Assembly: GCF_002950945.1 (NCBI RefSeq)
Contig: NZ_CP012673.1
Coordinates: 13,135,501-13,199,500, forward strand
Length of the DNA: 64,000 nt
From: Sorangium cellulosum
GTDB lineage: Bacteria > Myxococcota_A > Polyangia > Polyangiales > Polyangiaceae
Reading direction: 5' to 3'
Below are positions 18,342-63,198 of this stretch, piece after piece (positions within the stretch are counted from its first letter, which is position 1; the number at the start of each line of letters is the position of its first letter). The notes under the pieces are model-generated. The model ran no database searches, was not told where the DNA came from, and saw only the letters and a list, made by a program, of their open reading frames with translations. The position numbers were made by a program, and so were the translations under genes.

Positions 18342-18357
18342 CTACACGCGCGCTGCG
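18316..18357. repeat. 21-bp tandem duplication across the aminotransferase stop codon, forming two hairpins
   Basis: The unit GCGCGCTACACGCGCGCTGC plus one base occurs at 18316-18336 and 18337-18357. Each copy contains a GCGCG/CGCGC stem with a CTACA loop. The aminotransferase stop (TAG, 18344-18342) lies in the second copy, so the duplication repeats the last codons. The paired hairpins could act as the end of the long operon transcript, but no T-tract follows. Confidence 0.7.
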
Positions 18358-19796
18358 GCGAGCGCCTGACCGAAGATCCTGGCCACCTCGTCGACCTGCG
18401 CGGCGGTGATGATCAGCGGCGGGAGGAACCGCACCACGCTGCCGTGGCGTCCGCCGAGCTCCACGATCAGCCCCCGCCGCAGGCACTCGTGCTGCACGCG
18501 CGCGGCGAGCTCCGCGTGGGCGGGACGGGCCCCGCGCGCGTCCGGCGCGGCCGCGGCGTCCACCAGCTCCACGCCGATCATCAGGCCGCGCCCGCGCACC
18601 TCGCCGACGCACTCGAACCGCTCGCCGAGCGCGGCGAGCTGCTCCATCAGGCGCGCGCCGAGCTCCGCGGCCGCGGCGTCCAGGCGCCCTTCGCGCAGGA
18701 GCGCGAGCGTGGCCGAGCCCGCCGCCATCGCGAGCTGGTTGCCGCGGAAGGTGCCGGCGTGGGCGCCGGGACGCCAGGTGTCGAAGCGCTCGTGATACAC
18801 CACCACCGAGAGCGGCAGTCCGCCGCCAAGCGCCTTGGACAGGACCAGCACGTCCGGCTCGATGCCGGCGTGCTCGAAGGCGAACATGCGCCCGGTGCGG
18901 CCAAAGCCCGTCTGCACCTCGTCGAGGATCAGGGGGATGTCATGGCGCGTCGCCAGCTCCCGCAGCCCCTTCAGCCAGGGCACGGGCGCCGGGATCACGC
19001 CCCCCTCGCCCTGCACCACCTCGAGGATGATGGCAGCAGGCTTGGGCACGCCGCCCTCCGGATCGGACAGCAGATTGCCGAGGTACGCGAGCGAGGCCGC
19101 GACCCCGGCGTCGCCGCCGAGCCCGAACGGGCAGCGGTAGGCGTAGGGATAGGGCGCGAACTGGACGCCATGCAGGCTCGAGCCGAGCGCCACCTTGGGC
19201 CCGAGGTTGCCCATCAGGGTGAGGGCGCCTTGTGTCATGCCGTGATAGGCGCCCTGGAAGGCGATCACCGTGCCGCGCCCGGTCGCGGTCTTGACCAGCT
19301 TCAGCGCAGCTTCCACGGCGTCGGCCCCCGTGGGGCCGCAGAACTGGATGCGCGCATGGCGGGCGAAGGACGCCGGCAGCACGCCGAGCACGTCCTGCGT
19401 GAAGCGATCCTTGACCGGCGTGGTGATGTCGAGCGTGTGGAGCGGCAGACCGGAGTGCAGCGTCCGCACCAGGACGTCGGTGACCGCAGGGTGGTTGTGC
19501 CCCAGCGCCAGGGTGCCGGCCCCGGCCAGACAATCGATGAACACGCGCCCCTCGACGTCCTCCACATACACGCCCTGCGCGCGCGAGAGCGCCAGCGGCA
19601 GCCGCCGCGGGTACGAGCGGGCGTTCGACTCGCGCTGCCGCTGCCGCTCGAGCAAGGGGTGATCCCCCAGCTCGTACAGCGCGCGCCGCCGGTGGCGCTC
19701 GGCCAGCTCGGCGGCGAGCCCCGCGTGCAGCGGCGATCTGGGCGCCGCGGGTACCTGGTCCGAAACAGGCATACTGGAAGCTGCAGACATACTCAT
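18342..19796 (-). CDS. dat: L-2,4-diaminobutyrate:2-oxoglutarate aminotransferase
   Basis: 484 residues; a class III PLP aminotransferase. Landmarks are CLAGAGTLALGHNHP, the phosphate-binding GPTGADAVEAALKL, YHGMTQGALT, the PLP-interacting LILDEVQTGFGRTGR and the Schiff-base Lys in VLSKALGGGLPLS. These match the DABA-aminotransferase group (Dat/PvdH/EctB-like), which makes diaminobutyrate from aspartate semialdehyde. Two A domains in the same operon read out as diaminobutyrate-specific, so this enzyme very likely supplies their substrate. The ATG at 19796 overlaps the preceding NRPS stop (ATGA), making it the last gene of the operon. A start two codons later is also possible. Confidence 0.88.
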   Translation of the reverse strand: MSMSAASSMPVSDQVPAAPRSPLHAGLAAELAERHRRRALYELGDHPLLERQRQRESNARSYPRRLPLALSRAQGVYVEDVEGRVFIDCLAGAGTLALGHNHPAVTDVLVRTLHSGLPLHTLDITTPVKDRFTQDVLGVLPASFARHARIQFCGPTGADAVEAALKLVKTATGRGTVIAFQGAYHGMTQGALTLMGNLGPKVALGSSLHGVQFAPYPYAYRCPFGLGGDAGVAASLAYLGNLLSDPEGGVPKPAAIILEVVQGEGGVIPAPVPWLKGLRELATRHDIPLILDEVQTGFGRTGRMFAFEHAGIEPDVLVLSKALGGGLPLSVVVYHERFDTWRPGAHAGTFRGNQLAMAAGSATLALLREGRLDAAAAELGARLMEQLAALGERFECVGEVRGRGLMIGVELVDAAAAPDARGARPAHAELAARVQHECLRRGLIVELGGRHGSVVRFLPPLIITAAQVDEVARIFGQALAAARV

Positions 19797-62818: not shown

Positions 62819-63194
62819 CACCACCTCAGCTCCAGACCAAAAAAATCCCGGCAAACGAGCGGGCTTGAGCACCGCATCTCACGCACCGCCCTCATGACGC
62901 CATGCGTCGTACATGTCGCGCGCCGGATGGCGTCAGGGTCGCCTCACCCGTCTAGCGTCTTGCTGTTGAAAATGAAAACGATTATTATTTTCTGAGTAGC
63001 GGTTGTATGAAACACGTGACCGGAGGCCGTCAAGGAAAAACCGCCCTGAACGGCTCGCTCGGCGTGAAGATGAAATTGATTTGGATTTTCGATTCGGGTA
63101 CCGGAGTCATCCCTGTCATGGACGCCTGTCCGGTCCCTGGAACCTTGACGTTTTTTGACGCATCGCAGCACGCTCCAGAGCAAAGGCTGATGCG
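62819..63194. promoter_or_regulatory. divergent control region of the siderophore operon and receptor gene
   Basis: A 376-base intergenic region, much richer in A and T than the rest of the window between about 62960 and 63130. It contains the Fur-like site and both start regions: the FAAL-NRPS leader on the minus strand and the receptor leader on the plus strand. No -10/-35 pair was assigned with confidence. A short frame (63007-63198) within it is described separately. Confidence 0.7.
62968..62986. promoter_or_regulatory. Fur-box-like iron-response operator
   Basis: GAAAATGAAAACGATTATT matches the 19-base Fur consensus GATAATGATAATCATTATC at 14 positions by eye. It lies 150 bases upstream of the FAAL-NRPS start and about 210 bases upstream of the receptor start, where one Fur dimer could repress both directions when iron is sufficient. 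Confidence 0.65.
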
Positions 63195-63198
63195 GTGA
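63007..63198 (+). CDS. small ORF overlapping the receptor start, uncertain
   Basis: 63 codons from ATG (63007) to TGA (63196-63198). The first two thirds are lower in GC than genomic genes. The stop overlaps the GTG start of the TonB-dependent receptor by the GTGA arrangement. No known motif is seen; ribosome binding site is weak. It could be a translated leader that couples to the receptor, or chance. Confidence 0.25.
   Translation: MKHVTGGRQGKTALNGSLGVKMKLIWIFDSGTGVIPVMDACPVPGTLTFFDASQHAPEQRLMR

Follow-up and report, generated by a model that had tools for sequence, protein, structure and literature searches.

An operon of Sorangium cellulosum, putatively under Fur control, for a predicted beta-hydroxyaspartate acyl-peptide siderophore, with two D-modules that have no working adenylation domain

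Introduction

Cupriachelin, taiwachelin, serobactin and variochelin are lipopeptide siderophores, like the product considered here; they differ from it in their hydroxamate ligands and their Burkholderiales hosts, and variochelin contains a residue extended by a polyketide synthase (PKS). Pyoverdine offers a resemblance in the way the pathway works, with an acylated precursor, an exporter (PvdE), an N-terminal nucleophile (Ntn) acylase (PvdQ) and a 2,4-diaminobutyrate (Dab) aminotransferase (PvdH). We analysed a window of 64,000 nucleotides (the whole stretch of DNA under study, positions 13135501-13199500 of a single 14,557,589-base contig) from a Sorangium cellulosum genome, in which an operon very probably encodes the synthesis, under Fur control, of an acyl-peptide siderophore with beta-hydroxyaspartate. 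Taken as a whole, we regard this as the best explanation of the locus with high confidence. Genes, motifs, conservation, the Fur-like site and the decay of one A domain can be read from the sequence, whereas chemistry, residue order, charging, deacylation and transport are predictions. The pathway belongs to a well supported class of known kind, to which it adds an acylase-exporter pair and two modules for D-residues without a working adenylation (A) domain.

TauD domains are named for cupriachelin, taiwachelin and serobactin in the available text of PMC8949500. A 2026 survey describes myxobacterial metallophores as understudied and, in its available part, counts 55 metallophore regions with nonribosomal peptide synthetases (NRPS) in 52 of 418 Myxococcota genomes (PMC12971057); loci like the present one may be among those 55 regions. 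A first-pass annotation made from the DNA letters had recognised no described myxobacterial product with this plan, and for Sorangium none was found in the open-licence literature.

Gene content and conservation of the operon

The siderophore class proposed by the first-pass annotation is supported by the domains, the A-domain codes, the Fur-like box, the receptor and a tree of the TauD hydroxylases. Pfam and NCBIfam profile searches with curated cut-offs placed the genes and domains where that annotation had put them, and confirmed each of its loader with fatty acyl-AMP ligase (FAAL) and NRPS parts, its PKS module, MbtH-like protein, exporter and Dab aminotransferase. Eleven genes run on the minus strand from 62872 to 18342, and because neighbours overlap by 1-4 bases or lie 3-9 bases apart, a single 44.5-kb transcription unit from 62872/62818 to 18342 is credible. 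The features are listed below in window positions (ACP, acyl carrier protein; C, condensation; PCP, peptidyl carrier protein; KS, ketosynthase; AT, acyltransferase; KR, ketoreductase; E, epimerase; TE, thioesterase).

57458..62872, minus strand: G1, FAAL-ACP-C-A(Ser)-PCP, start codon GTG at 62872 or ATG at 62818
57836..59320, minus strand: A1 in G1, code DVWHLSLIDK, Ser
52608..57461, minus strand: G2, KS-AT-KR-ACP, AFHS motif in the AT, repeat-rich AT-KR linker
50791..52608, minus strand: G3, cyclic peptide exporter (TIGR01194, 454.7 bits, cut-off 286.2)
48416..50794, minus strand: G4, Ntn acylase (Penicil_amidase), lipobox-like signal LSIAGC by eye, nucleophile Ser263
48162..48419, minus strand: G5, MbtH-like protein
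47083..48165, minus strand: G6, stand-alone TauD, Asp-type beta-hydroxylase
39241..47073, minus strand: G7, C-A2(degenerate)-PCP-E-C-A3(Ser)-PCP
44170..45654, minus strand: A2 in G7, degenerate A domain, code GAEAVTAAVA, K517 changed to A
43924..44142, minus strand: PCP2 in G7, carrier without a working A domain
42556..43893, minus strand: E domain of the first D-module in G7, HHLVVDA
39598..41082, minus strand: A3 in G7, code DVWHLSLIDK, Ser
32794..39237, minus strand: G8, C-A4(Dab)-PCP-C-PCP-E
32848..35946, minus strand: second D-module in G8, without an A domain, C-PCP5-E
23785..32790, minus strand: G9, C-A5(Asp)-PCP-C-A6(Dab)-PCP-C-TauD
23833..24825, minus strand: fused C-terminal TauD of G9
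19793..23788, minus strand: G10, interface-type C-A7(Asp)-PCP-TE
22478..23758, minus strand: C-like domain of G10, HHxxxDG lost (APALCSDAWT), interface-domain candidate
18342..19796, minus strand: G11, diaminobutyrate aminotransferase (NF005393, 762.8 bits, cut-off 671)
62974..62992, minus strand: Fur-like box, 15/19
63072..63090, minus strand: second Fur-like site, 13/19
63195..64000, plus strand: start of a TonB_C-plug-barrel receptor, extending to window-equivalent 65861 in L036

The FAAL was named from its best subfamily matches, all of them below the curated cut-offs (best 536.9 against 775 bits). We take the AT of G2, with its AFHS motif, to be malonyl-type and the exporter to be of the PvdE/SyrD type. 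No dehydratase family was matched in this PKS in the Pfam and NCBIfam searches. Two in-frame tandem arrays were seen, one of the TSTSVGS type in the AT-KR linker of G2 (54577-54754) and one of TREA units at the N terminus of G6 (48085-48143). In the PKS of one relative, genome G002 (L023-L025), a KR-matching stretch is missing; query residues 909-1485 are unmatched and no KR motif was found.

Orthologues of the acylase were searched for in 144 genomes. They are present at 79-93% identity in four of the five other genomes of the same genus, the fifth (G001) being a draft that is 89% complete, and at 58-59% in three genomes of one sister genus; the next matches are at about 35%. The order of the operon genes is maintained in seven other genomes, four of the same genus, one of these loci being cut by its contig end, and three of the sister genus; the sister genus differs in that the Dab aminotransferase gene is placed between exporter and acylase. 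Coverage of G005 was 20,000 of the 23,538 bases of one contig; the covered stretch starts inside the PKS gene, and the contig ends inside G8. Elsewhere in the window, at 13712-16114, lies a class II tRNA synthetase of 800 amino acids with a GAD domain, presumably aspartyl-type.

Iron control and receptor

The first-pass annotation had placed a Fur-like box between the operon and an opposite-strand TonB-dependent receptor. The box scores 15 of 19, a value reached by none of 1000 dinucleotide shuffles of the intergenic stretch (322 bases), whose maximum was 13, and all three positions of the 50-kb region that score at least 13 fall in that stretch upstream of G1. A putative Fur site of at least 14/19 lies upstream of G1 in 7/7 loci, the own one included. 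The share of positions scoring at least 13 that lie upstream of G1 is 3/3 in the own locus, 3/3 in G003, 2/6 in G004, 2/3 in G002, 2/2 in G062, 2/2 in G081 and 1/1 in G024. The receptor, too, was recovered by its TonB_C-plug-barrel match, and a divergent receptor gene is located upstream of G1 in all seven loci, with a PepSY_TM gene in between in G004. Iron control and a cognate receptor, as found with beta-hydroxyaspartate siderophores, are therefore both predicted for this locus.

In the receptor protein a TonB C-terminal domain is fused ahead of the plug. Its gene is followed by a 466-amino-acid frame without a Pfam match and then by a PepSY_TM protein; within the stretches covered, the frame recurs in 6/6 other loci and the PepSY_TM gene in 3/6.

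Beta-hydroxylases and the interface-type domain

Two aspartyl-type beta-hydroxylases had been predicted, and the tree placed both, the stand-alone TauD protein G6 and the TauD domain fused to G9. All nine fused domains form one clade (support 1.0), and all 13 stand-alone enzymes fall into the other, where they are joined by the late enzyme of G002; the fused and stand-alone TauDs of cyanochelin B group with the matching Sorangium types. Codes and tree together give the combination expected of the class, a siderophore-type TauD beta-hydroxylase with an Asp-specific A domain. A C-TauD end followed by a C domain without the HH pair and an Asp-specific A domain occurs in six of seven loci and also in the cyanochelin B, Janthinobacterium and Azospirillum clusters. 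After the fused TauD the HHxxxDG motif is lost in 6/6 Sorangium and sister-genus loci that have this arrangement (APALCSDAWT here, LPALCADTKS in cyanochelin), as is characteristic of an interface-type domain; the term interface domain is reportedly that of Reitz 2019.

In the seventh locus, that of G002, the C-like domain also lacks the HH pair by eye, the A code is DSALIAEVWK and the TauD is separate. This terminal TauD is nearest to a Methylocystis TauD whose neighbouring module shares the code DSALIAEVWK. We assume that code and enzyme perhaps stand for beta-hydroxyhistidine, histidine being our guess.

Fused enzymes are assigned to L-threo and stand-alone enzymes to L-erythro products in the available text of PMC12628792 and PMC7100376, the latter with the warning that this rule is valid within related genera. 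It is likely that G6 hydroxylates one Asp, probably that of the A5 module, and that the terminal Asp is the substrate of the G9-fused TauD working together with the interface-type C domain, with the L-threo form as the probable outcome.

An acyl-peptide with another use, such as a surfactant or an antibiotic, might happen to contain hydroxyaspartate. Some lipopeptides with hydroxyaspartate are no metallophores, turnercyclamycin being one according to the available text of PMC12971057, and two hydroxyaspartates give just four of six donor positions. We nevertheless consider such a use very unlikely, given the Fur-like box and TonB receptor in 7/7 loci and the match of the hydroxylase pair and interface-type domain to a siderophore cluster.

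A-domain codes and module order

The six readable codes of the first-pass annotation were recovered as DVWHLSLIDK (Ser), DIWELTADDK (Dab) and DLTKVGHVGK (Asp), each twice; A-domain matches below 300 bits were omitted from code reading, and the residue names are those that we take the Stachelhaus tables to give. Its count of amino-acid A domains has to be corrected to seven, the seventh being the degenerate A2. Across the genomes, the code of A3 is Ser in 8/8, of A5 Asp in 7/7, of A4 Dab in 7/8 and of A7 Asp in 6/7, the exception being G002 with DSALIAEVWK. More variable are A6 (Dab in 4/7, Gly-type in 3/7) and A1 (Ser in 3/7). These swaps between relatives (Dab to Gly-type, terminal Asp to DSALIAEVWK with another TauD) suggest that chelating positions stay chelators. 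No literature text containing the code DAEDIGTV(V/S)K was found, and the basic residue that we assume for it is an analogy.

A1 and A3 share 96.0% nucleotide identity over 1677 bases here, 99.5% over 1686 bases in G004 and 88.4% over 1710 bases in G003; G002 and the sister genus reach no more than 70-74% over about 350-715 bases in this region. A1 was likely overwritten by gene conversion from A3, judged by these identities. In cyanochelin B, the code of the module that comes after the fused TauD is DLTKIGHVGK, in agreement with the hydroxyaspartate given for position 4 in the available description of that product, if the gene is CcsI, as we assume.

Domain and code reading bear out the module order proposed earlier. 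The FAAL would load a fatty acid onto the line, and the modules would then add Ser, a reduced malonate, a D-residue X1, Ser, Dab, a D-residue X2, Asp, Dab and Asp, the one reduced malonate yielding a gamma-amino-beta-hydroxy acid. This residue order follows from colinearity and is probable.

Two D-modules without a working A domain

New in this locus are the degenerate A domain of the first D-module in this strain and the second D-module without an A domain, which has the form C-PCP-E in 7/7 complete G8 proteins. In A2, core motif A3 (the motif, not the domain of that number) reads CVLEPSDAAGEPDA; this core, D235 and the A10 lysine K517 are lost. Six of eight genomes have the domain intact; it is degenerate in part in G002 and badly so here, where 64 of its 495 residues are unique to this strain compared with 2.1-5.4% in nine other domains. 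The ratio of nonsynonymous to synonymous substitution rates (dN/dS), a simple pairwise estimate between recombined loci, is 0.93 for A2 against G003 (the highest of 31 domain rows) and 0.73 against G005, compared with 0.32 between the intact copies of G003 and G005; PCP2 (0.28) and the E domain (0.40), both against G003, still look constrained. The G005 rows for G9, G10 and G1, genes that the covered stretch lacks, are non-orthologous and were ignored; the rows for the swapped A6 region against G003 and G004 (43-69% identity) set different modules against each other and were dropped. HHxxxDA in the module 2 E domain was considered as decay, a reading rejected since the motif is present in 8/8.

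That module 2 is skipped, or that the line fails in this strain, is suggested by the loss of the A3 core, D235 and K517. Yet PCP2 and the E domain do not share the surplus of unique changes, their dN/dS values are low, and the second D-module shows in 7/7 that a missing A domain is tolerated; we therefore regard a skipped module as unlikely.

With A2 decayed and no A domain in the second D-module, the charging of X1 and X2 has to come from outside their own modules. For albicidin and ramoplanin, complementation of inactive A domains in trans is described in the available text of PMC8949500, which also gives SyrB1 and the albicidin A-T protein as precedents for a separate A or A-T protein that could charge PCP2 and PCP5. 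A stand-alone NRPS-type A domain (G000:C1:901012-902760, L168) with a GGVGDT repeat does adjoin a carrier-like frame and is conserved in Sorangium, at 86-89% identity in the four other same-genus operon genomes. In the sister genus, however, it is at best 43% identical although the module there likewise has no A domain, and this donor was rejected in a non-exhaustive search, in which three short frames from the A-domain matches of the own genome were pursued. Charging in trans by such a protein is thus an improbable alternative, and neighbouring A domains are the likelier donors because of this low identity. We lean towards the carriers for X1 and X2 being charged by neighbouring A domains of the same line. 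The loci offer a ready experiment on the loss of an A domain, since six genomes have the module intact, G002 has it partly degenerate and this strain has it dead, with carrier and epimerase remaining constrained while A2 decays.

Acylase, exporter and the fate of the acyl chain

The acylase had been called PvdQ-like. Its Ntn acylase nature stood (Penicil_amidase, 573.7 bits), but membership in the PvdQ family did not (49.7 bits against a cut-off of 950), so that the PvdQ equivalog of pyoverdine systems is not what this operon encodes. In alignments with solved Ntn acylases, Ser263 falls on the first residue of the beta chain, and it is invariant in ten aligned sequences. The exporter immediately precedes the acylase in five same-genus loci, the own one included, and in the three sister-genus loci the two are at most 2 kb apart.

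In a neighbourhood survey of 80 acylase loci, the best 80 of 549 relatives, nine have an exporter no more than 10 kb from the acylase, eight of them outside Sorangium. Six of these eight are from organisms that we take, from their names, to be methanotrophs, one is from Nitrospirales and one from a Burkholderiales metagenome-assembled genome; an NRPS A domain is also present in five, the other three have MbtH alone, and a Dab aminotransferase gene or fragment is present in four. In 70 of the 80 loci, many on short contigs, there is no exporter, TauD, A or KS neighbour, and L090, one of the remaining ten, has merely a 26% A match. The Nitrospirales locus (L096, NPIRA02, BQIV01000040.1) follows the sister-genus order with exporter, Dab aminotransferase fragment, acylase and MbtH, and has FAAL-C-A-PCP and a KS downstream, in another phylum.

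Alternatively, the product might be a lipopeptide siderophore whose acyl chain is retained, with the acylase serving recycling, chain trimming, signal degradation or self-protection. The related cyanochelin B and potashchelins are acylated products in the available descriptions, and the acylase stands outside the PvdQ family. Against this, the acylase directly follows or closely neighbours the exporter in all eight Sorangium and sister-genus loci, and the pair recurs in Methylocystis and eight further non-Sorangium loci. Retention of the chain is accordingly the less likely outcome, and removal of the chain in the periplasm, as by PvdQ for pyoverdine, is somewhat favoured. Judged from the methanotroph and Nitrospirales loci with this pair, processing of acylated precursors may extend beyond pyoverdine.

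Points weighing against the proposed pathway

Several observations speak against the pathway as proposed. A stricter Fur scan of the whole window, allowing three mismatches, gave no site. Among solved Ntn acylases, the acylase is closer to D-succinylase (219.9 bits) than to PvdQ (45.2 bits). The decayed A2 could mean a failing module, and the pairwise nature of the dN/dS values tempers what they say. A search with PF13434 gave no convincing ornithine/lysine N-monooxygenase in the own genome, that is, no hallmark of a hydroxamate siderophore: two matches exceed Pfam's low cut-off of 21.3 (32.5 and 23.4 bits) but are partial, covering roughly 120 and 80 of the 339 model positions, and matches above the cut-off also occur in 12 of 14 control genomes. 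Hydroxamate was rejected as third ligand on these partial matches. Two sister genomes have six full-length matches of 339-351 bits.

The receptor passes the NCBIfam MxcH cut-off (1258.9 against 925 bits) and so bears the label of a myxochelin receptor, and a 2,3-dihydroxybenzoate (DHB)-AMP ligase scores above its cut-off elsewhere in the genome, at 6334995. A second full-length MxcH-type receptor lies about 5 kb from that ligase, at 6341708, and since the ligase thus has its own receptor, the window receptor is a separate paralogue; the DHB-AMP ligase at 6.33 Mb lies near that second receptor and not beside that of the window, and the myxochelin-receptor reading was rejected. Because of the ligase, the pathway is probably not the only iron route of this genome. 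The combined proposal that both D-residues are cross-charged with A2 dispensable and decaying, that periplasmic deacylation occurs here outside pyoverdine and that it yields a soluble chelator with a third ligand that is neither hydroxamate nor catechol is, with all parts taken together, doubtful.

Comparison with known systems

The pathway very probably serves to produce an iron-scavenging acyl peptide, to export it and to take it up again; the peptide's tail may be clipped later. The product would leave through the exporter G3, and its ferric form would return via the divergent MxcH-type receptor. Other myxobacterial siderophores are of different types: sorangibactin, in the available text a coelibactin-like phenol and thiolactone compound, and the catecholate myxochelins are not hydroxyaspartate acyl-peptides.

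Compared with pyoverdine, the present line starts with FAAL and PKS parts and its acylase scores far under the PvdQ cut-off; pyoverdine chromophore genes were not seen among the operon genes in general domain scans, which included no dedicated search. Plasmids of Methylocystis bryophila and Methylomagnum ishizawai also combine TauD, NRPS/PKS and acylase genes, with no named product seen for these clusters. They differ in their A codes, M. ishizawai in addition by a SidA-type N-hydroxylase. M. bryophila shares the exporter immediately before the acylase, whereas its TauD is 45 kb from the acylase with unrelated genes in between. On the same plasmid (L084, L085) the TauD gene is followed by an NRPS frame of 11271 amino acids with nine near-identical-scoring Ser-type modules, and the exporter-acylase pair lies about 10 kb beyond that frame.

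The potashchelin pathway of Halomonas sp. MG34 differs by a cyclic N-hydroxyornithine and has no PKS in its module order as described, and its available description mentions no acylase. The cyanochelin B cluster (Leptolyngbya sp. NIES-3755 plasmid 2, AP017310) differs by a thiazoline unit, by an A domain in each NRPS module found in L080 and by the absence of a Dab code among the five A domains read there (the NRPS genes of L171 being uncoded); the word acylase is absent from the main text of its paper. It is likewise a FAAL/PKS/NRPS hybrid and shares with the Sorangium operon the run C-A-PCP-C-A-PCP-C-TauD followed by a C domain without the HH pair and A(Asp)-PCP, a second, stand-alone TauD, an unsettled third ligand and a receptor adjoining the cluster, there annotated as ferric aerobactin-type.

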